Positions 3,951-17,267 of a stretch of 64,000 nucleotides of DNA are shown piece by piece (position 1 is the first letter of the stretch; each line of letters opens with the position of its first letter). Location: positions 62,001 through 126,000 of the forward strand of contig JAIQEX010000002.1 in NCBI GenBank assembly GCA_020073615.1, written 5' to 3'. Under the pieces are notes generated by a model. The model was not told the origin of the DNA. It did no database searches and saw nothing but the letters and a program-made list of their open reading frames with translations. Origin of the DNA: Terriglobia bacterium. Lineage in GTDB: Bacteria > Acidobacteriota > Terriglobia > Bryobacterales > Bryobacteraceae. A program made the translations under genes and the position numbers.

Positions 3951-6026
3951 TCAGATCGAGAAGCGAGGATCGCCTTCTACAACCTGCCCCTCGAGCCTGG
4001 GCGCTTGACCTTTGCGCCAGAGATTTGCGCGGTACTTGACACGGTATGCCAGCGGACCTCCATCCAAGCGGTCGCTGCGCTCCAGTGGACGTGGGATACA
4101 GACGAACTCGGTTTCCAAATGGTCGCTCGCCGCGCGGACGATCGCATAACCGTGCCCGCCCATATCGACGAACGACACGTGCGGCGAGAGATCGGGATTA
4201 GAAAGCGCGCGCGCCCGGCCGATATCTCCGCTCCTCGCATATTCGAGGCAGGACCGCACACCGTGCCGTAGCAGCAGGTTTACGGTCGGCTGCGGACCGC
4301 TATCGGCGGGGCCCTGGCCGAGGTAGAGACAGCGAAGCGGGTGCTCTTTGGGGAAGCTGTGCTCCAGCGCTTCCACGAGTCCGGGTGCGGAGATCGACCC
4401 CGTGATGAACGCAACTCCAACCGGCTGAAATGCTTTCGGCGGAAGCGATTTGGCCGCGAGTCCAGCCCAGAAGCTGTGCCTGTCGCCGGCCACGGTGGCA
4501 AACCCGGTGATACCCTGCCGGCGCACGAAATCATAGATTTCGCCGCGCTCCACGTATGCGCTGCTGGGATCTCCGCCGCCGAAAGTTGCGTAACCCGCTC
4601 CCGGCCACGGTTTCGTCACGCCGGCCGGCAAGTTTTGCGGGTCGGCACGCATGTCGAGCGTGCCTGCCGTATTTCCCCATATTTTCCAGGTCGCCGTGGA
4701 GGTCCGAAGCTGCTCCAGAAACCAGGCCTTCTGTTCCGCCCCGAGGACGGTCTGCGGAGGTTCATCTTTGCGGAAATTCGGGACTTCGATACTGCCAAAA
4801 CGAATGGTGGCCGGAGGATGTCCCTCGGAATGCGCCCGCCCCGCGTCCAGGATCTCCATTGCCTCTTCCGGCACAAATTCGGGAAAGTCGCGGATCGAGA
4901 ATGCGCTCGCTTCCGCCCTCCCGGATGGGTCTTCCGAACGATAGCTATGCTGGTCGGTGATCATCAGATCGACATGACGGCCCCAGCGAAGTCTCCTATA
5001 TCCCCGCAGGCTATGGATCGCGGCCAGGTTGTTCGGCTCCTGCCCCAGGCCGTACTCGTCGAAGCGGGGAATCGCGGCGTCCACCACTTGCGGCGGATTG
5101 AAGCGATCCATCGATGGCCCGCTGGGCTTCGACATTCTCGCCGGCTGATATTCAAAGAACGCCTGATTGGCGGCCACTTTTCGCGTCTGGGCCGGCCGCG
5201 TCTCCCCTTTGAACACCTGCAAGCCCTGCCATCCGAGCCAACTGAACTCGTGGTTGTCCCACATATTCACGAAGGGCCAGCGTGCGCGCGCGTCCTGCAA
5301 GTCGGGATCGTGAAGATACGCGCGATAGACTGCGCGATAATCCGCGAGCGTCGTCGGAATGTGGAAATCGTCGATCTTTTCGCCGTGTTCATAACGGACA
5401 ATGTCGCGCAGCCGGCGGTCGTACATGCCCTGCGGGCGGTCTGCGGGATACCAGACGATTTCATAGATGAAATCGCCGAGGTGCAAAACGAAACCGAGCC
5501 GATCCTGCGCGGGGGCCCGCTCGTCTTCGAAGATCATACGGCGATAGGCGCTCTGGGCCCCTTGATTGGCGTTTTGACAACTGACGAAGGCAAAGCGCAC
5601 CGGCTTCGTGTCGCCCGGGGATGGCGCGGTGATCGTTCGCCCGACCCTGCTGCCCAACCCCTCCCGATCCGTGAAACGGTACCAATAGACACGCCCCGGC
5701 ATTAGACCGGCGACAAGTACCCGGCAGGTCCAGTCGGCGTCTCTGGACACGAGCGCGCGCGCGGTCGCTACCACTTTCCGGAAACCGTCATCTTCCGAGA
5801 TCTCAACCGTCAGAGTCTCTTCGGCGCGATCTGTTGAAAACGGGTGGCGAGTCCACAGCAGCACGCTGCTGCTGTCTGGATCTCCGGAAGCTACACCTTC
5901 GGGATAGAGAGTCCGGCGTTCCTGCCAAGGGACGCGAGACGGCCTGCCGGTGGGCTCTCCCCACGCTGCGGAAGCGCCGACGGCAGCGGCGATCTTCGCA
6001 AAGGTACGGCGGGTAATGCGTGTCAT
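3951..6026 (-). CDS. phoD: PhoD-like alkaline phosphatase/phosphodiesterase, Tat-exported
   Basis: 691 residues from the ATG at 6026. TRITRRTFAKIAAAVGASAA is a twin-arginine signal, so the folded metalloenzyme would go to the periplasm. YPEGVASGDPDSSSVLLWTR begins the Fn3-like PhoD N-terminal domain. The metallophosphatase domain follows with FAFVSCQNANQG, LGDFIYE, NMWDNHEFSW, MITDQHSY and VAGDRHSFW, which contain the metal-binding Asp, Asn and His residues of the PhoD family. The family hydrolyses phosphomonoesters or diesters with Ca/Fe. It is longer than typical PhoD (~550), with an extended C-terminal part. No Pho-box was recognised. It stands alone, 140 bases downstream of the S24-type gene. 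A purine-rich GGAGGAGGTGG run at about 6038-6052 could instead support GTG starts a few codons upstream. Confidence 0.85.
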   Translation of the reverse strand: MTRITRRTFAKIAAAVGASAAWGEPTGRPSRVPWQERRTLYPEGVASGDPDSSSVLLWTRHPFSTDRAEETLTVEISEDDGFRKVVATARALVSRDADWTCRVLVAGLMPGRVYWYRFTDREGLGSRVGRTITAPSPGDTKPVRFAFVSCQNANQGAQSAYRRMIFEDERAPAQDRLGFVLHLGDFIYEIVWYPADRPQGMYDRRLRDIVRYEHGEKIDDFHIPTTLADYRAVYRAYLHDPDLQDARARWPFVNMWDNHEFSWLGWQGLQVFKGETRPAQTRKVAANQAFFEYQPARMSKPSGPSMDRFNPPQVVDAAIPRFDEYGLGQEPNNLAAIHSLRGYRRLRWGRHVDLMITDQHSYRSEDPSGRAEASAFSIRDFPEFVPEEAMEILDAGRAHSEGHPPATIRFGSIEVPNFRKDEPPQTVLGAEQKAWFLEQLRTSTATWKIWGNTAGTLDMRADPQNLPAGVTKPWPGAGYATFGGGDPSSAYVERGEIYDFVRRQGITGFATVAGDRHSFWAGLAAKSLPPKAFQPVGVAFITGSISAPGLVEALEHSFPKEHPLRCLYLGQGPADSGPQPTVNLLLRHGVRSCLEYARSGDIGRARALSNPDLSPHVSFVDMGGHGYAIVRAASDHLETEFVCIPRPLERSDRLDGGPLAYRVKYRANLWRKGQAPRLEGQVVEGDPRFSI

Positions 6027-6113
6027 GTGCTTTGTCTGGTCTCCCACCACCTCCTCCTTGGGCTCAGAATACCAGGAAATGCCACCGTCCGGATTCGATC
6101 GCGCACCTGCCGA

Positions 6114-6297
6114 TTCCGCGCCGCAACGGGGTCGGTTTGCGCTACAGTCGTGATGGAAAGAGCGCATCGCCATGGCTTCCAACGCCGAAGGGAGTGGGTT
6201 GCCGGGCCGGATCGTGGGACGGTTCCGGCTCGTCCGCTTGCTCGGCGAGGGCGGCATGAGCCGCGTGTGCGCCGGCGAGCGGAGCGGCGACTTCCAG
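6114..6297 (+). repeat. direct repeat copy A: upstream region and first codons of a kinase gene
   Basis: This ~184 bp segment is almost identical to 6465-6647. The two begin with TTCCGCGCC, share GGGGTCGGTTTGCGCTACAG and the ATGGCTTCCAACGCCG start, and run in register (one single-base length difference) up to CGGCGACTTCCAG. Copy A then leaves the kinase sequence abruptly and leads into the tRNA-Leu promoter; copy B continues into the intact kinase. Few substitutions separate the copies, so the duplication is recent or homogenised. Confidence 0.95.
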
Positions 6298-6336
6298 GTA
6301 CCGGCCGGGGCGTCTAAACGAAGGTATACGCTATAA
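6172..6336 (+). pseudogene. truncated duplicate of the kinase N-terminus (54 codons)
   Basis: This reading frame starts with the same ATG and 42 codons as the intact kinase at 6522 (MASNAEGSGLPGRIVGRF, then LLGEGGMSRV with the glycine-rich loop). It diverges after GDFQ and ends at a TAA that lies inside the TATAAT box of the tRNA-Leu. It lacks the VAIK lysine and all catalytic motifs, so it cannot be a kinase. Changes relative to the intact copy include Asp to Glu at position 6 and Tyr to Cys in the glycine-loop region. It is read as a dead duplicate left by the event that placed the tRNA between the two copies. Confidence 0.85.
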
Positions 6337-6337
6337 T
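6332..6337 (+). promoter_or_regulatory. -10 box of the tRNA-Leu promoter
   Basis: A perfect TATAAT lies 22 bases before the mature tRNA 5' end, a usual distance for a tRNA gene. No good TTGACA is visible 16-18 bases upstream, where the sequence is GC-rich (around 6309-6315). Confidence 0.6.
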
Positions 6338-6359
6338 CGTGATTCGTCGCAGGACGAAC

Positions 6360-6448
6360 GCCGGAGTGGCGGAATTGGCAGACGCAGCAGACTCAAAATC
6401 TGCCGGGGATCACTCCTCGTGAGGGTTCAAGTCCCTCCTCCGGCACCA
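6360..6448 (+). tRNA. tRNA-Leu (anticodon CAA)
   Basis: The acceptor stem GCCGGAG (6360-6366) pairs with CTCCGGC (6438-6444), followed by discriminator A and an encoded CCA. The D-arm region is GGCGGAATTGGCAGACGC. The anticodon stem GCAGA/TCTGC encloses the loop CTCAAAA, giving anticodon CAA for UUG codons. A long variable arm (GGGGATCACTCCTCGTGAG region) marks a class II tRNA, and the T-arm GGGTTCAAGTCCC is canonical. It sits between two copies of a kinase 5' region. Confidence 0.97.
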
Positions 6449-6464
6449 TAAAGCCGGCCTTTTG
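6440..6464 (+). terminator. probable terminator overlapping the tRNA 3' end
   Basis: CCGGC (6440-6444) can pair with GCCGG (6453-6457) across an eight-base loop that contains the CCA, followed by CCTTTTG. The stem is short and shares bases with the acceptor stem, so it would form only in the unprocessed transcript. Confidence 0.4.
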
Positions 6465-6647
6465 TTCCGCGCCCCGGCGGGGTCGGTTTGCGCTACAGTC
6501 GTGATGGAAGGGCGCATCGCCATGGCTTCCAACGCCGATGGGAGTGGGTTGCCGGGCCGGATCGTGGGACGGTTCCGCCTCGTCCGCTTGCTCGGCGAGG
6601 GCGGCATGAGCCGCGTGTACGCCGGCGAGCGGAGCGGCGACTTCCAG
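6465..6647 (+). repeat. direct repeat copy B: promoter region and start of the intact kinase
   Basis: This is the partner of 6114-6297. It carries the upstream region and the first 42 codons of the intact kinase. The offset to copy A is 351 bases before, and 350 after, a one-base indel in the GGAA(A)G run just upstream of the start codon. Confidence 0.95.
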
Positions 6648-8078
6648 CAAATCGCGGCCGTGAAGCTGCTGCGGGAGGAACTGTGCGATTCCGAGATGCG
6701 CCTCCGCTTTCGCGCCGAGCGGCAAGTGCTCGCATCTCTGCAGCACCCCAACATCGTCCAGTTGATCGACGGTGGACTCACTGCCGATGGCGTGCCGTAC
6801 CTGATTATGGACTACGTGGAGGGGGAACCGCTGGACCAGTACTGCGACCGGCGGCGGATATCGCTGCGCGAGAGAATTCAGTTGACCATCCAGGTCCTGG
6901 ATGCCGTGGCATATGCGCACCAGCACTTTGTGGCGCACTGCGATATCAAGTTCTCCAACATCCTGGTTACCGCGGACGGCCAGGCGCGGTTATTGGATTT
7001 CGGCCTCACCAAGCTGCTCGAGCCCTCCCGTCTGGGAATCGACAGCCAGATGACCGGAGCGGCCCTCCGCCCGTTTACCCTCGAGTTCGCCAGCCCGGAG
7101 CAGCTCCAGGGGCAGAACCTGACCACGTCCACGGACATCTATTCCTGCGCGGTGGTGCTCTATATCCTGTTGACCGGCACGCATCCCTTCGAGGCTTTGC
7201 GGAGCCAGCCGCTGGCATTGGTGCGGGCGTGCATCTCCGAGGAGCCGGAGGCGCCCAGTCATCGGGTGAAACACCTGATGCGTACCGATCGGGCGGCTGC
7301 GCACCGCGCGGCAGAGTCGCTGGGGACCACGCCGGAGAGGCTGGCGCGGGAACTCCATGGCGATCTGGATGCCGTGCTGCTCAAAGCTCTGCGGAAGGAG
7401 CCCGACCGCCGGTACACCAGTGCGACTCAGTTCGCCGCCGATCTCGGAAATTTTCTGGCGGGGCGTCCAGTGGAGGCCAGACGCGGGTCGAAGCGCTATC
7501 GGCTCTGGAAGTTTGTGAAACGGAACCGCGCGGGCGCGATTGCGGCGCTGGTCCTGCTGGGCGCTCTGCTCGCGGGAGCCGGGGGCGTGATCTGGCAAGG
7601 CATTCGCGCCGGCAGGTCCAGGGCCATTGCGGAAGCACGGTTCGACGATGCCCGCAAGCTGACGGATTCCCTGCTGCTGGACTTTTATCAATCGGTGCAG
7701 AAGCTGGATGGATCCGAGCGCGCCAAGCGGTCACTGGTTCAGTGGTCTCGCGAGACACTGGAGAATCTCGCCCGGCAGAGCGGGAGCAACGCCGCGGTAA
7801 GAGCGGACCTGGCAAACACGTATTTGCAGTTGGGGAGGCTCCAGGCGAACAGCGGAGGCGCCGATCCACCGCAGTGGACGGAGGCCGTGGCGTCATACGA
7901 TCACGGGCTCTCGCTGCTGGAGCCGGTACTCGCGAAGGAGCCCGCCAGCCGCCCTGCGCTGGTGGGCAGAGCACACCTGCTCGAAGCCCGGAGCGAAGCG
8001 GAAAGGGCGCTCGGCCGGCTCGAGGACAGTGCCCGAGACGCCAACCTCGCGCGCGAGATCCTGTCCCGCAAGGAGTAG
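6522..8078 (+). CDS. membrane-anchored Ser/Thr protein kinase (Hanks type), HCD variant
   Basis: 518 residues. The start is the ATG at 6522, with GGAAGG ten bases upstream. Kinase domain at about 15-320: glycine loop LLGEGGMSRV (24-32), AAVK lysine 48, helix-C Glu66, catalytic loop HCDIKFSNIL (Asp141) and DFG Asp159. The usual HRD Arg is Cys, as in non-RD kinases. An insertion with charged helices precedes the last kinase helices. RAGAIAALVLLGALLAGAGG near 348-367 is one membrane helix, followed by ~130 residues with TPR-like character outside. The same layout (kinase, helix, TPR-like tail) is found in the convergent kinase at 8093-10873, but this tail is much shorter. It has no sigma-factor partner of its own. 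The substrate is unknown. Confidence 0.9.
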   Translation: MASNADGSGLPGRIVGRFRLVRLLGEGGMSRVYAGERSGDFQQIAAVKLLREELCDSEMRLRFRAERQVLASLQHPNIVQLIDGGLTADGVPYLIMDYVEGEPLDQYCDRRRISLRERIQLTIQVLDAVAYAHQHFVAHCDIKFSNILVTADGQARLLDFGLTKLLEPSRLGIDSQMTGAALRPFTLEFASPEQLQGQNLTTSTDIYSCAVVLYILLTGTHPFEALRSQPLALVRACISEEPEAPSHRVKHLMRTDRAAAHRAAESLGTTPERLARELHGDLDAVLLKALRKEPDRRYTSATQFAADLGNFLAGRPVEARRGSKRYRLWKFVKRNRAGAIAALVLLGALLAGAGGVIWQGIRAGRSRAIAEARFDDARKLTDSLLLDFYQSVQKLDGSERAKRSLVQWSRETLENLARQSGSNAAVRADLANTYLQLGRLQANSGGADPPQWTEAVASYDHGLSLLEPVLAKEPASRPALVGRAHLLEARSEAERALGRLEDSARDANLAREILSRKE

Positions 8079-8092
8079 AAATCGCGAAGCGC

Positions 8093-10873
8093 TTACGGCT
8101 TCCGCTCACGCAAGCCACGCAGCATGTCTTCCACCGATCGGCGCGTCCTGGTTGCCGGCTGGCCGTGCGCGGGCGCGGGTAGCAGCGCTAATGCCTTGCC
8201 GAGTGCCTGGCGGGCCTCCTCCGGTTGGCCGCATGCCAACTCGGCTTTGGCGAGGGTCAGGAGAAATGGCGCGTTGGCGCCGTGGCTCCGGGCCACTGCC
8301 TGCGTAGCAAAACCGAGGGCCTGGCGGGGTTCCCGCCACTCCACCGGCTCGACGTCCACGAGATAGCCGGCGATCCGGTCCAGGTCGGCCGCCGAGGCAT
8401 TGGCGTTGCCGGCGATGCGCAGGGCCAGCGCGAGTGCTTCGCGGACGGCGCGATCGCCTTCCGCCCGCCGCCCGAGGGCGCGATCGATTCGCCCGATGCG
8501 ATACGTGGCTTCCGCCCGGTGGCCCAGCCACACGGAATTGGTTGCATCCCGCCGCAGTAGCTCGCCCAAAATTCCCAGCACGCGGCGGTAGTCTTCCCGC
8601 GCGCCGATGCGGTCGCCCATGCTCTCCCTGACCTGTCCGAGCTCATAGTCCGCATTGGCGAGGTCGTAGCGTGTGCGGGTATCGTCCGGATCGCGCTCCG
8701 CCAGCGAGGCGAACAGGTCGCGGGCGGAGACCAGGTAAGGAATGGCTTCTCCCGGCCGCGCGATCTCGTAGTAGAGGGTCCCCAATCCACGGCTGATGAT
8801 CGCGGCGATGCGCGGCGTGGGCATGGCCTTGCGCGCCTTCTCGGGGAGCCGGTTCAGGGCGGCGAGAGCATCGGCGTAGCTTTGCGCGGCAACCGTGGGC
8901 TCGGTGTCGCCTTGCACGTTGGCGATTTTCATCTGCTCGATGGCCGTGCCCCGCTGCGACCGGACATTGCCGGGATCCAGGGCGAGGGCACGCCGGTGCA
9001 GGACCAGCGCATGGCGATAACTGTCGAGGGCGGCACCGAGGTCGCCCATGCTGGCGGAACCGTGGAGCCCGTACAGGTCCCCCAGCGAATCCAGAGTGGA
9101 GGCCGCTTCCTGTATGTCCGGCACGGTGGCCGCGGGCCTCCCCGCCAGCCCTTCGAACGAGCGCGCGGCGGCACGGGAGTACTCAATGGCCCGCGTGGTG
9201 TTGCCGATGCTGAAATGCACTTCGGCGAGACTGCGCCGTGCCAGGCCAAGGCGCCGTGCGACGGCCGGGTCTTCGGGGCGAAGCCGATCGAGACTCTCGG
9301 CGAGGTGGAGGGCTTTTTCCAGGCTGGCGAGAGCCTTGGGAGCGTCCCCCAGATTCTCTTCGTAGGGATTGCCCAGCACGTTCCCCATTTTCGTGTAGGC
9401 TTCGACCAGATCGAGTTGAATGTCCGGCTCCGTCCACGGTCCTCGGGCGAGGCCATCGAGATAGGCAACCGCCTGGGTGACGAGCCGCCGCTGCACGTCG
9501 GTGGAGCCTTGCAGTTGCTTCACCTGATCGTAGAAATCGAACAGAAGAAGGTTGGCGAGGCGCCGGACATTTTGAAAGCCCGCCCGCGCGCGGCGTTCTT
9601 CGGCCGCGGCAATGCGGCCCTGGCGCGCCGTCACAGCCACCCCGGCAGCAAGCGCCGTGGTGATCGCGAGGGTTGCGCCGAAAGCCAGAGCGTGGCGCCG
9701 GACGAACTTGAACGCACGATAGGCCGCGCTGCCCTGGCGCGCTCCGACCGGCCGATGCTCCAGATGATTCCGCAGGTCCGCGGCCAGCTCGTCGACGGAC
9801 CCATAGCGCTCCTCCGGACGCGCGCGCAGGGCCTTGAGCACGATCGCGTCCAGGTCCCCGCGAAGCTCCCCGCGGCGTATGCGCACCTCCTCCGCCGTCG
9901 TTGCGTTCGCGCTCCCTCCGGGCGCCGGCCGGGTGATGGCCTCGTGCGGCGAAACCGGAACGGTGGCCATCACCGTCTGCACGGCTTCGGCGCTGGAAAG
10001 GTCGTGAAGGTCGAACGGGAGCCGGCCGCTGAGGAGCCGATAGAGGATGACGCCGAGGGAGTAGACATCGGACGCCGCCGTGGTGGTTGTGCCCAGCACC
10101 TGTTCCGGGCTGGCGTACTGTGGGGTGAAGGCTCTCATTCCCATGCGGGTGGCCTGATGTCCGATGGCGGGGTCCGGGTGCAGCAGCTTCGCCGCGCCGA
10201 AATCGAGAAGCTTCACCCGGCCCTCGGGCGTGACCAGCACGTTCGCCGGTTTCAGGTCGCGGTGAATCACCAGATGGCGGTGCGCAAATGAGACCGCATC
10301 GCACAGCTGAAGCGACAGCCGCAGCACCGCGGGAACCGAAGCTCGCGTCTGCTCGCAATAGCGGTCGAGGCGCAGACCATCGACGTACTCCATGACCAGG
10401 TACGGTTCGCCCGACTCGGTGATGCCGCCGTCCAGCAGCCGGGCAATATTCGGATGGTTCAAGGACGCGAGCGTCTGGCGTTCTTCGAGAAAGCGCTGTC
10501 TCAGCCAGGGGGACCGGAAAGGCCCGGAGGCGAGCTTGAGCGCAACCTCCTGCTCGAAGTCTCCACCGATGCGCCGGCCGAAATAGACGGCCCCCATGCC
10601 TCCGCGCCCAATCAGGCGTTCCAGGTGGAAAGCGCCGAGGGTGCGGCCGATCCATCGTTCGGCTTCCGGGGGTTCGGCCGGTTCCTGCGGGACACCCGCG
10701 AGGCGCTCGGCCTCGGACGCCGCTTGCAGCAGAGATTCCACCTCTTCCCGCAGCGCGCGATCGCCGGCGCACCACTCCTCCAGGAGCGTCGAGCGCTCCT
10801 CCGCCGCGCACTCCGAGGCACGGTGGAAAAGCTCCTCCACGCGTTGCCAGCGTTCTTCAGGAGCCAGTGCCAT
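8093..10873 (-). CDS. Ser/Thr protein kinase with transmembrane helix and C-terminal TPR array
   Basis: 926 residues from the ATG at 10873. Residues 1-75 are a helical N-terminal region (RWQRVEELFHRASECA) common in acidobacterial sigma-linked kinases. Kinase domain at about 80-370: LIGRGGMGAVYFG loop, Lys113, HRDLKPAN with Asp206 and DFGAAKLL with Asp224, all intact. A hydrophobic helix near 405-430 (LAFGATLAITTALAAGVAV) is followed by ~490 residues of TPR-type helical repeats, for example AVARRLGLARRSLAEVHFSI. Its start overlaps the ECF sigma gene by 17 bases, so the two are co-translated. Kinase-associated ECF factors of this type are thought to be activated through the kinase, which is the likely role here. 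It converges with the kinase at 6522 with only 14 bases between the stops. Confidence 0.92.
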   Translation of the reverse strand: MALAPEERWQRVEELFHRASECAAEERSTLLEEWCAGDRALREEVESLLQAASEAERLAGVPQEPAEPPEAERWIGRTLGAFHLERLIGRGGMGAVYFGRRIGGDFEQEVALKLASGPFRSPWLRQRFLEERQTLASLNHPNIARLLDGGITESGEPYLVMEYVDGLRLDRYCEQTRASVPAVLRLSLQLCDAVSFAHRHLVIHRDLKPANVLVTPEGRVKLLDFGAAKLLHPDPAIGHQATRMGMRAFTPQYASPEQVLGTTTTAASDVYSLGVILYRLLSGRLPFDLHDLSSAEAVQTVMATVPVSPHEAITRPAPGGSANATTAEEVRIRRGELRGDLDAIVLKALRARPEERYGSVDELAADLRNHLEHRPVGARQGSAAYRAFKFVRRHALAFGATLAITTALAAGVAVTARQGRIAAAEERRARAGFQNVRRLANLLLFDFYDQVKQLQGSTDVQRRLVTQAVAYLDGLARGPWTEPDIQLDLVEAYTKMGNVLGNPYEENLGDAPKALASLEKALHLAESLDRLRPEDPAVARRLGLARRSLAEVHFSIGNTTRAIEYSRAAARSFEGLAGRPAATVPDIQEAASTLDSLGDLYGLHGSASMGDLGAALDSYRHALVLHRRALALDPGNVRSQRGTAIEQMKIANVQGDTEPTVAAQSYADALAALNRLPEKARKAMPTPRIAAIISRGLGTLYYEIARPGEAIPYLVSARDLFASLAERDPDDTRTRYDLANADYELGQVRESMGDRIGAREDYRRVLGILGELLRRDATNSVWLGHRAEATYRIGRIDRALGRRAEGDRAVREALALALRIAGNANASAADLDRIAGYLVDVEPVEWREPRQALGFATQAVARSHGANAPFLLTLAKAELACGQPEEARQALGKALALLPAPAHGQPATRTRRSVEDMLRGLRERKP

Positions 10874-11465
10874 GATGCCGGCCTTGGGCCGCGTGCGCAC
10901 CGCCGCGCAGCTCCCGGAAGAGCCAGGCGCGCGCAAACTTCAGCTCCCGTTCCGCGGTGGCATGCGAGATGTTCAGCAGCTCGCAGGCCTCTTCGGTGGT
11001 GAAGGACAAGAAGAAGCGCAGCTCCAGCAGGCGCGCTTTGCGCGGATCGATTTCCTGCAGGCGCTCCAGGGCGGTGTTGAGGTCCAACAGTTCTTCGGCG
11101 CTCGACCCGATCCAGGCGAGGTCGGACGATACCGTGAGGTCGAAGCCTCCGCCGCGGCGTTGTGCCAGATGGGCCCGGGCGTGATCCGTCAGGATATTGC
11201 GCATCACCAGCGCGGTAAAGGTGAAGAAGTGCGCCCGGTCGTTCCAGGTCACTTTGCGCTGGTGGAGCAGCCGCATGTAGAGCTCGTTGAGGAGGGCGGT
11301 GGGCTGCAGGGTGTGGTCCGTGCGCTCGCGGCGCATCAGTCCCAGGGCAATTCTGTGAAGCTGATCGTAAACCAGGGGAATCAGGGAATTGAACGCCTCC
11401 GGGTCGCCTTTGCGCCAACCTTCAAGCAGCAGCGTAACTTCTCCCGGATCGTCCTGACCGCCCAT
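10857..11465 (-). CDS. ECF-type RNA polymerase sigma factor (TIGR02999/Sig-70_X6-like)
   Basis: 202 residues. Region 2 is seen in GDPEAFNSLIPLVYDQLHRI, LQPTALLNELYMRLL and AHFFTFTALVMRNILTDHAR; region 4 is LELRFFLSFTTEEACELLNI followed by SHATAERELKFARAWL, a helix-turn-helix. The ALQPTALLNE and W-x-x-RAHFF features belong to the ECF group common in acidobacteria and planctomycetes and usually encoded beside a Ser/Thr kinase. No anti-sigma gene is adjacent; instead the kinase gene overlaps its 3' end. A perfect inverted repeat lies 17-34 bases before the start codon. A candidate regulon motif is described at 11520 and in three further places. Confidence 0.92.
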   Translation of the reverse strand: MGGQDDPGEVTLLLEGWRKGDPEAFNSLIPLVYDQLHRIALGLMRRERTDHTLQPTALLNELYMRLLHQRKVTWNDRAHFFTFTALVMRNILTDHARAHLAQRRGGGFDLTVSSDLAWIGSSAEELLDLNTALERLQEIDPRKARLLELRFFLSFTTEEACELLNISHATAERELKFARAWLFRELRGGAHAAQGRHHGTGS

Positions 11466-13784: not shown

Positions 13785-15401
13785 ATGACGAACGTCCCGA
13801 GAGCAAGAAACAGGAGTCGATTGATCCAAGTTTCGATAGCGTGCGCCGCGATTCTGGCCGGGACACAAGCGGCCGGCCAGCAGTCGCTGGATCAGATTCT
13901 CAAAAACGGTGTGGTGGTGCCGGGGAAAAAGCCTCCCGCCACGGCGACCACGCCGAAGCAGCCCGCCAATCAGCCCCGGAGCACAACGCCGGCGGCGAGA
14001 ACAGGGACTCCCGCGGCGGCCTCCGCGGGCTTTCACATGGACCTGCCCCCCGGATGGCGCGCTCAGGTGGCGCAAAACGGAGCGGTGATGGCCGCCGGCC
14101 AGGACGGTTCCGCCGTGGTCATCGCCCCGGTTCTGGGAGCGGGTGGCGCGGACGCTGGAACCTGGCTCCAAGGCAGCGGCGCGGCAGCCGTGGGCCAGTA
14201 TTTCCAGAGTGTGGCGATGACCGGAATCTATCAAAGCCGCATGGGGCCGAGCGCCGCCCTGGCCTCCTTCGACTATGCCGGGCCGTCCGGGGCGGGCACA
14301 GCCAATGTCCTGTGCTTCCTCAACGAAGGAGTGGGGACGCTTTACCTGATTGCCGGGCCCAAAGCGGCGTTCCCGCAGCAACGTTCCGGCCTGGTGCGCA
14401 TCCTGCGGAGTTTTTCCTTCACGGGAGAGCAAACGGGCGGCGAAGCGGCTCAGGCCGTTTCCCACACCACCTTCACCCGGTTCCGCGATCCCAGCGAGGG
14501 GGCGTTCACCATTGATGTGCCCGCCGGATGGAAAGTCGAGGGCGGGCTGGTCCGCAAATCGACGCTCGATGTCCGGCCCTTCGTCTGGATGAACTCACCC
14601 GATGGTTCGACGGCGATCCACCTCCGCGACCCCAGCTTCGGCACGTTCATCATCCCCAGCCAGATGCTTGCGATGGCACATCTACAGGAAGGAATGACCT
14701 ACACACCCGGCTACGGCAACATATGGGTCATCGCCCGCTACCTGCCCGGCCCGCAGTTCGCGCAGCAGTATGCCGCCAAGCTGGCCGCGGACACGCAGAC
14801 CTCGGACGTGCAGATCAAATCCGTTAATCCCCGGCAGGACCTGAGCAAGTCGCAGACCACGGGCATCGTGCAGGAGCAGACCATCGGCGGAGAGGTGGAA
14901 TTCACCTGCACGCGCAACGGGCAGGAGTGCGCCGGCAAGGTAGTGGCGTCGACGCGACTGCATGTGACTTCGACCATGCCCGATTCCGCCCTCTGGTTTA
15001 TCGACCTGCTGGCTTCCTTCGTGACCGTGCGGGAACGCTACGGCGCGACGGACCAGATGCTCCAGCATATGATCGCATCGACGGAGTGGAACCCGCAGTG
15101 GGAGGCGATGCAAAGCCAGACCGCGTACAAGACCGGGCAGATCGCCCGCGACGCGAGCCAGTATACCGCCCAGGTTTTCGATGAGGTCCACGCCAACCGC
15201 GAGAGGTCCGAGGAGCGCATACATCAAAACCGCATCGACACCATCCGCGGCGTCGTACGCCTGAAGGATCCGAACACCGGCGAGGAGTTGGAGGGCGTGG
15301 CCGGCCGGAACTACTACTACCGCGCCCCGGGAGGCAGAGCCTTTGGCGCGGACCGTGAGATTCGCAGCCCTGACCTGACCGAACTCGAACAGATTCGTTA
15401 G
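13785..15401 (+). CDS. secreted protein, paralogue 1 (two PsbP/MOG1-like modules, conserved C-terminal tail)
   Basis: 538 residues. The ATG at 13785 follows GGAGGACCAA. A signal peptide (VSIACAAILAGTQAAG) is followed by SLDQILKNGVVVPGKK and a Pro/Thr/Ala-rich linker. Two similar modules follow: one from FHMDLPPGWRAQVAQNG and one from FTIDVPAGWKVEGGLV, each opening with the beta-strand and P-x-G-W pattern of MOG1/PsbP/DcrB-like domains (inference from pattern). The last 70 residues (RERSEERIHQNRIDTIRGVV, then DPNTGEELEGVAGRNYYYRA) are almost identical to those of the gene at 15589. The function is unknown. The location just upstream of the FHA-protease/kinase operon suggests an envelope partner. 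Confidence 0.8.
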   Translation: MTNVPRARNRSRLIQVSIACAAILAGTQAAGQQSLDQILKNGVVVPGKKPPATATTPKQPANQPRSTTPAARTGTPAAASAGFHMDLPPGWRAQVAQNGAVMAAGQDGSAVVIAPVLGAGGADAGTWLQGSGAAAVGQYFQSVAMTGIYQSRMGPSAALASFDYAGPSGAGTANVLCFLNEGVGTLYLIAGPKAAFPQQRSGLVRILRSFSFTGEQTGGEAAQAVSHTTFTRFRDPSEGAFTIDVPAGWKVEGGLVRKSTLDVRPFVWMNSPDGSTAIHLRDPSFGTFIIPSQMLAMAHLQEGMTYTPGYGNIWVIARYLPGPQFAQQYAAKLAADTQTSDVQIKSVNPRQDLSKSQTTGIVQEQTIGGEVEFTCTRNGQECAGKVVASTRLHVTSTMPDSALWFIDLLASFVTVRERYGATDQMLQHMIASTEWNPQWEAMQSQTAYKTGQIARDASQYTAQVFDEVHANRERSEERIHQNRIDTIRGVVRLKDPNTGEELEGVAGRNYYYRAPGGRAFGADREIRSPDLTELEQIR

Positions 15402-15413
15402 GGGAGAGCCGTC

Positions 15414-15588: not shown

Positions 15589-17250
15589 ATGACCACCACG
15601 AGGACAGCGGAAAGAAAGGTCCGATTGTGGAAGATTGCAGCGGCTCTTGGCGCCTCGATCTTGTTTGGCCCGCCGTCGGTAGGTCAGCAGTCGCTGGATG
15701 ATCTTCTCAAGAAAGGCGTCGTAACGCCCGGAAAGAAGCCAGCGGCTGCCCAACAGCCTGTCAGTAAGGGCCAGACCGCAGCGCCGGCGAAAAAAGCGGC
15801 AACGCCCGCCGGCGGTCAAAAAAACCAGGCAGTTGCGGCCACATCCGGGGCTTTTCGCATGGATCTGCCGCCGGGATGGCGCGCACAGATGGGGCAGAAC
15901 GGTGCGGTAGTTGCCGCTGGGCAAGGAGATCTGGCGGTGGTGATCGCTCCGGTGTTGGACGCGGGCGAAGTTGCAGCCGGGACTTGGCTGCAACGAGCTG
16001 GCGCCTCTGCGGTAGCGAAGTACCTGCGAGATCCCACGATCACGGGAATCTACCCCAGCCGAATGGGGACCAGCGCTGCCCTGGCGTCTTTCGATTACGG
16101 CGGAGGAGAGGGCGCCGCAAACGCCCTCTGCCTCATCAACGGAGGAATTGGAACACTGTACATCATTGCCGGCCCCAAGGCGGTGTTCTTGCAGCAACGC
16201 CCCGGGCTGGTGCAGATGCTGAAGACCTTCTCTTTCTCAGGCGAAGCCCGCAGCGGGGGAGAATCGGCGCAGACGTCCCGGGCGGGCTTTATCAACTTCC
16301 AGGATCCCGCGGAAAAGGCATTCACCATCGACGTGCCCGCGGGCTGGAAGGTTGAGGGCGGGCTGGTACGCAAATCAGCGATGGATTTCCGGAACTACGT
16401 CTGGGCGACCTCGCCCGATGGTTTCGCTTTCATCCGCCTTCGCGACCCTGCTTATGGCACTTTCATGATTCCCGACCCCACCCATGAGTCCCTCGGCGTT
16501 CGGGAGGGCATGAACTACACGGTAGGCCTCGGCCTCGTGGAGCTCGTGTTGCGCTATATCCCCGGTCCGGACTTCGCCCGTCAGTATGCCGCCAAGTTGG
16601 CAGCCGACCTACAGGCCACCGGCTTGCAGGTCACAGCCGTTAATCCCCGGCCGGACCTGAGTAAGACGGAAACCGCGCCCGCTCCCGGACCTTATGCCCC
16701 ACAGGTCCAGGTTACGGCCGCGGAAGCCGAATTCACCTGCACGCGCAATGGCCAGCCGTATGCCGGCAAGGTCGTCGCGGCGACTCGCCTGGATCTGTTC
16801 CAGGACAGGAATCCGATTCTGGGCAACACGAATTTCGGGCATTGGAGCATCAAATACCTGGGCTCCTATTTAACCCCGCAGGAGCGCCTGAGGGACACCG
16901 ACCAGATCTTCCGGCACATGCTGGATTCCGTGCAGTTCAGCGCGGAGTGGGGGAGGATGCAGGGCAAACTCGCTTTCGACGCCGCGCAAGCGAACAGGGG
17001 CGTGTCTGAGTACCGGGCCCGGGTCTTCGATGAGGTTCACCAGAACCGCGAAAGGTCGGAAGAACGGATACACCAAAACCGCATCGACTCCATCCGGGGC
17101 GTCGTTCGCCTGAAGGATCCGAACACCGGCGAGGAGTTGGAAGGCGTAGCCGGAAGGAACTACTACTACCGCGCACCGGGAGGCAGGGCCGTCGGCGCGG
17201 ACAGAGAGATTCGCAGCCCTGACTTCACTGAGCTTGAACAGATTCGTTAG
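15589..17250 (+). CDS. secreted protein, paralogue 2
   Basis: 553 residues. GGAG lies eight bases before the ATG. It has the same layout as the gene at 13785: signal peptide, SLDDLLKKGVVTPGKKP, an Ala/Pro/Lys linker, module 1 from FRMDLPPGWRAQMGQNG, module 2 from FTIDVPAGWKVEGGLV, and a conserved tail ending FTELEQIR. The tail is charged and helical (EVHQNRERSEERIHQNRI) and then has GRNYYYRAPGGRAVGADREI; it is the most conserved part of the pair, so it is probably the functional contact surface. It ends 17 bases before the FHA-protease gene, and is probably the first gene of that operon, driven by motif copy d. Confidence 0.8.
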   Translation: MTTTRTAERKVRLWKIAAALGASILFGPPSVGQQSLDDLLKKGVVTPGKKPAAAQQPVSKGQTAAPAKKAATPAGGQKNQAVAATSGAFRMDLPPGWRAQMGQNGAVVAAGQGDLAVVIAPVLDAGEVAAGTWLQRAGASAVAKYLRDPTITGIYPSRMGTSAALASFDYGGGEGAANALCLINGGIGTLYIIAGPKAVFLQQRPGLVQMLKTFSFSGEARSGGESAQTSRAGFINFQDPAEKAFTIDVPAGWKVEGGLVRKSAMDFRNYVWATSPDGFAFIRLRDPAYGTFMIPDPTHESLGVREGMNYTVGLGLVELVLRYIPGPDFARQYAAKLAADLQATGLQVTAVNPRPDLSKTETAPAPGPYAPQVQVTAAEAEFTCTRNGQPYAGKVVAATRLDLFQDRNPILGNTNFGHWSIKYLGSYLTPQERLRDTDQIFRHMLDSVQFSAEWGRMQGKLAFDAAQANRGVSEYRARVFDEVHQNRERSEERIHQNRIDSIRGVVRLKDPNTGEELEGVAGRNYYYRAPGGRAVGADREIRSPDFTELEQIR

Positions 17251-17267
17251 CCGAAAGCGAGGAAGCA

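Follow-up and report, generated by a model that had tools for sequence, protein, structure and literature searches.

The window, the whole 64 kb stretch of DNA analysed here, contains a single pair of near-identical repeats, and between them lies a gene for tRNA-Leu(CAA) (Table 1). Both repeats, copy A (184 bases) and copy B (183 bases), run in the same direction and hold the upstream region and the first 42 codons of a Ser/Thr protein kinase gene. Copy B continues into a 518-codon frame with a Pfam protein kinase domain, and copy A breaks off. To the left, a divergently transcribed gene for a PhoD-like phosphatase (phoD) serves as flanking marker; the start codon at 6026 is our choice, and the gene as such is backed by its Pfam hits. 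In the intact kinase the catalytic HRD motif reads HCD (HCDIK, at 6936-6950, residues 139-143), which would make the protein a non-RD kinase. HRD is present in the kinase next to it, at 8093-10936.

Table 1. Features at the duplicated kinase start and around the tRNA gene (window coordinates).
Feature	Position	Strand	Evidence or remark
PhoD-like phosphatase, divergent neighbour, left-flank marker	3951..6026	-	PF09423, PF16655
Copy A: kinase upstream region and first 42 codons, dead copy	6114..6297	+	95.65% identical to 6465-6647
Dead frame of 54 codons, begins in copy A	6172..6336	+	ORF; Pfam search of the frame, no match
Inter-copy segment with the whole tRNA unit, 167 bases	6298..6464	+	G+C 0.58
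TATAAT, -10-like element of the tRNA	6332..6337	+	perfect motif match
tRNA-Leu(CAA)	6360..6448	+	ARAGORN; Rfam RF00005, 57.5 bits
Terminator-like hairpin, overlaps the tRNA 3' end; CCTTTTGTTC comes next	6440..6457	+	weak
Copy B: kinase upstream region and first 42 codons, start of the intact gene	6465..6647	+	self-comparison
Intact Ser/Thr protein kinase, 518 aa	6522..8078	+	PF00069, 8.9e-43

The first-pass annotation had described the two copies of the promoter region and first 42 codons as almost identical and equally oriented. Extent and direction hold, and the wording is slightly generous: in a self-comparison of the window the alignment of the copies spans 184 columns, of which 7 are substitutions and one is a 1-base gap (E 1.9e-79). 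The offset between them is 351 bases at their starts and 350 past the gap, and the longest identical runs measure 40, 38 and 32 bases. Three of the substitutions are clustered within four bases (6123-6126); a further substitution and the 1-base gap also lie ahead of the start codon. The remaining three fall into the 42 codons that the copies have in common: E6/D6 and C33/Y33, which alter the protein, and one at R19, which is silent. The right end of the repeat falls within a run of codons that goes on in copy B only. As a partial copy close to the intact gene, on the same strand and of high identity, copy A has the marks of a truncated local gene duplication.

What became of copy A? Its frame, already recognized as short and dead in the first-pass annotation, closes with 12 codons unrelated to the kinase, and its stop falls inside the TATAAT element 5' of the tRNA. 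Codon 33 encodes Cys in copy A, whereas the homologous position is aromatic in 21 of 21 rows (17 Tyr, 2 Phe, 2 Trp), taken from 21 foreign loci, two of whose rows (L037 and L070) represent the same gene. Because every row has an aromatic residue in the place of its Cys33, copy A appears to be a decayed copy with a derived, unlikely state at this codon. Three coding changes are too few for a rate test, and two amino-acid changes too few to tell decay after the duplication from allelic divergence between a donor and a recipient.

The tRNA assignment, and its place in the approximately 167 bases between the copies, is borne out by ARAGORN and by the Rfam covariance model, whose gathering cut-off is 29 bits. 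Evidence for a promoter belonging to the tRNA itself, which had also been proposed, is mixed: the -10-like hexamer is a perfect match, and no full hexamer pair passed a sigma-70 consensus scan of positions 6020-6660. A -10-like element, GCTACAGT, is likewise common to both copies (6141-6148 and 6492-6499). With no full promoter pair at hand, our statements on promoters are therefore confined to -10-like motifs. The hairpin at the 3' end of the tRNA is weak, as one terminator-like hairpin was seen where shuffled sequences give a mean of 0.6. A transcript from copy A, if present, would run into the tRNA. The tRNA-Leu(CAA) gene is the sole one with this anticodon in its own assembly. Among the 39 typed tRNAs of that assembly tRNA-Leu(TAA) is absent; it was probably lost in assembly, because both TAA copies of the sister genome, the only other genome of the genus, sit at contig ends.

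Direct repeats on either side of a tRNA gene call to mind the att sites left by site-specific integration. Could the present pair be such a remnant? We consider this extremely unlikely and reject it: the repeats consist of kinase DNA, end at 6297 and resume at 6465, and so lie outside the tRNA on both sides without sharing a base with it. Moreover, only the tRNA lies between them, in 167 bases and with no integrase. A tRNA between direct repeats, as this locus reminds us, need not mark an integration site. A transposon with target-site duplication was discarded as well, as the repeat comprises 184 bases of gene DNA; inverted repeats with both arms (of at least 18 bases) at the edges of 6298-6464 were not found. 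Finally, we looked for direct repeats that bracket a tRNA within 1.5 kb. Of the 39 tRNAs of this genome 1, namely the one described here, has such a pair, some flanks being cut by contig ends. Of 19 CAA tRNA loci of other genomes (L003-L021) none has; the comparison that included these loci comprised 48 tRNA rows in total, 2 of which had flanks too short to be used. On these counts a mobile tRNA cassette as a recurrent element was rejected. One of the 19, L018, shows a 24-base inverted match.

Is the arrangement older than this lineage? In the sister genome the phoD head is 83.6% identical at the nucleotide level over 684 columns. The similarity spans the start of phoD and stops at about 6100-6123, at the left edge of copy A; to the right of phoD follows an unrelated gene, and neither the kinase nor the tRNA lies beside the phoD head at this place. 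The sister phoD itself (L022, 3559-4257) is cut short past approximately 195 matching residues and is a decaying gene. The sister assembly encodes tRNA-Leu with the anticodons TAA (the two copies mentioned above), TAG, CAG and GAG, and a strict pattern found no CAA copy there, which may reflect loss, a variant missed by the pattern, or a gap. By the same pattern 178 of 237 family genomes, the present one included, carry tRNA-Leu(CAA), which is therefore an ordinary tRNA in the family.

Neither for the repeat nor for the kinase was a near copy found in the 236 other family genomes, the best foreign match having 66% nucleotide identity; two candidates were scored per genome, so that weaker matches could escape the search, a near-identical one hardly. 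The rest of the genome itself yielded no near copy either (40 of 43 candidates scored). No kinase orthologue emerged among the genomes searched, and the scan of named genomes returned 13 loci, the best with 41% identity in protein. As an anchor, phoD is recovered at 1e-100 in 3 of 61 genomes: this one, its sister, and one from another family of the class, L121, where the stretch examined contains no tRNA and no significant kinase hit. Viral contigs gave no exact match to a 29-base stretch. Across 49 CAA loci, genes are common only to small groups of loci, among the matches listed, so that no ancestral place of the tRNA appears nameable from these comparisons. According to the first-pass annotation, relatives with one kinase copy directly beside the tRNA would make the ancestral order clear; what the sister genome offers is a phoD head with neither kinase nor tRNA at that place. 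The two-copy arrangement itself occurs in no other genome searched. The duplication thus appears to be lineage-specific, absent from genus and family across 237 genomes (its own included, two candidates scored per genome), with the genus represented by one other genome.

This distribution also bears out the earlier view that the duplication is recent. Copies A and B differ by approximately 4%, compared to approximately 16% between the neighbouring phoD head and that of the sister species. The duplication is probably younger than the split between the two species, if rates were similar and no conversion took place between the copies; since the repeats are close together, conversion is possible.

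Does the repeat exist in the organism at all, or did the assembler join two strain versions of one locus? The assembly consists of 252 contigs with an estimated contamination of 2.1%, and the difference between A and B is about the level of strain variants. However, the two sides of the join at 6297/6298 share nothing on which reads could have been mis-joined, the window is free of N's, and the site lies 68 kb from the left end of the contig and about 80 kb from its right end. We regard an artefact as quite unlikely. Very probably this is a real, truncated local duplication of an ordinary kind with no special function, whatever the order of events.

How did it arise? The best reading is recombination with one non-homologous join. 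That join, at 6297/6298, is the one novelty common to all models; there, codon 42 in copy A abuts the DNA just 5' of a tRNA-Leu(CAA) unit that leads on to a complete kinase. Provided that the duplication is real, we tentatively favour a single exchange, at somewhat less than an even chance of being the right order. One partner would have been a chromosome in which the kinase adjoined phoD, the other a DNA molecule, either a sister chromosome or incoming DNA, in which the tRNA immediately preceded the kinase. The exchange would have been homologous on the right and non-homologous on the left, yielding the order phoD, dead kinase start, tRNA, intact kinase. Copy A would have decayed afterwards, while tRNA and kinase kept their own upstream regions working. 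No route to this order takes fewer steps than a single exchange, and models with two steps account for the sequence just as well. The exchange calls for a donor in which the tRNA immediately precedes this kinase; such a donor was not found, as the surroundings of the tRNA-Leu(CAA) genes in 10 other genomes contain no match to the kinase or phoD. The left edge of copy A coincides within approximately 10 bases with the end of the similarity to the sister genome, a coincidence that is weak evidence for anything, because no more than about 145 bases separate phoD from the kinase start in copy A.

A tandem duplication followed by deletion is, again given a real duplication, possible though doubtful. 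Either the unit of tRNA and kinase start was doubled and the first tRNA later lost, or the whole kinase-tRNA unit was doubled and a deletion then took the last 90% of the first kinase and the DNA from there to the tRNA. Tandem paralogues occur commonly in this genome: within the window the segments 14013-15409 and 15835-17258 are 69% identical over 1440 columns, and tandem copies also occur in stretches L155, L156, L162 and L166. Widespread small-scale duplication is described for Solibacter usitatus (PMC3174227), a bacterium to which we would guess this genome to be related. On the other hand, at least two events are needed, and neither a second tRNA copy nor a 3' remnant of the kinase lies between copy A and the tRNA.

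Alternatively, a tRNA unit from another place could have been inserted into an original intergenic region between phoD and the kinase, with 184 bases of the kinase start copied by template switching in the course of repair. The segment between the copies is a complete tRNA unit of lower G+C than the copies themselves (0.70-0.71), the loci compared show no gene neighbourhood of tRNA-Leu(CAA) common to the family, and the sister assembly is without a CAA copy. Yet half of the segment is tRNA, whose structure sets its composition, so little can be read from the low G+C. The assembly retains no source copy of the tRNA, 167 bases are too short for any mobile element, and this one event needs two template switches. 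As a share among the possible orders of a real duplication, we rate insertion as unlikely.

Homology-assisted illegitimate recombination (PMC2884548), the kind of event that the single exchange would represent, and small duplications (PMC3784515) have both been described. Like the small variable segments of PMC2884548, ours is short, has direct repeats at its edges and no mobile element, and one homologous and one non-homologous side are possible for both. Most flanking repeats there are under 30 bp, in contrast to 184 bases here, and unlike those segments ours carries a whole tRNA unit. The small duplications of Streptococcus pneumoniae (PMC3784515) share with the present one a local nature and ends without a long common repeat; the duplication described there measures 3,276 bp, whereas the present one covers no more than the start of a gene and has a tRNA between its copies. 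Judged by titles and the openings of abstracts, none of the literature retrieved is on the topic of tRNAs between partial gene repeats, and we make no claim that such cases are unpublished.

The duplication appears to have no evident function of its own. Might copy A nevertheless act as a second promoter that couples the supply of tRNA-Leu(CAA) to the control of the kinase, with the repeats kept since recombination between them would delete the sole CAA tRNA gene? We consider this proposal as a whole very unlikely. The danger of losing the only CAA tRNA gene of the assembly by recombination between the repeats may, by itself, help to keep the arrangement. The locus has few general implications. 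It illustrates clearly how part of a gene, once copied, can come to adjoin a tRNA and, if copy A is transcribed, would be a small case of promoter capture by duplication.

Are partial copies of this kind an exception in this genome? We surveyed 464 kb (the window and 20 further stretches of 20 kb each, drawn from long contigs and not at random) for repeats on the same strand, of at least 60 bases and 85% or more identity, and less than 5 kb apart. Matches were obtained in the window, in L161 and L168 (two pairs each), and in L172, L166 and L153. The repeats of L172 and L166 are of low complexity by eye. Reading of the frames places the L161 and L168 pairs in gene fragments, which by our reading of the translations would be gltD-like and from an ABC transporter; scars in the form of local partial gene copies thus recur in this genome. 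Similar to copy A, these copies are gene fragments (91-411 bp) that are 90-97% identical to a partner 1-3.2 kb away. They differ in that the partners are further apart. At 15277-18138 of L161, two partial gene copies are nested, one of 121 bases at 97% and one of 411 bases at 92% identity. The match in L153 (9609-11791) is a tandem array with a unit of approximately 276 bases; as 276 is a multiple of 3, the array perhaps encodes a repeat protein.
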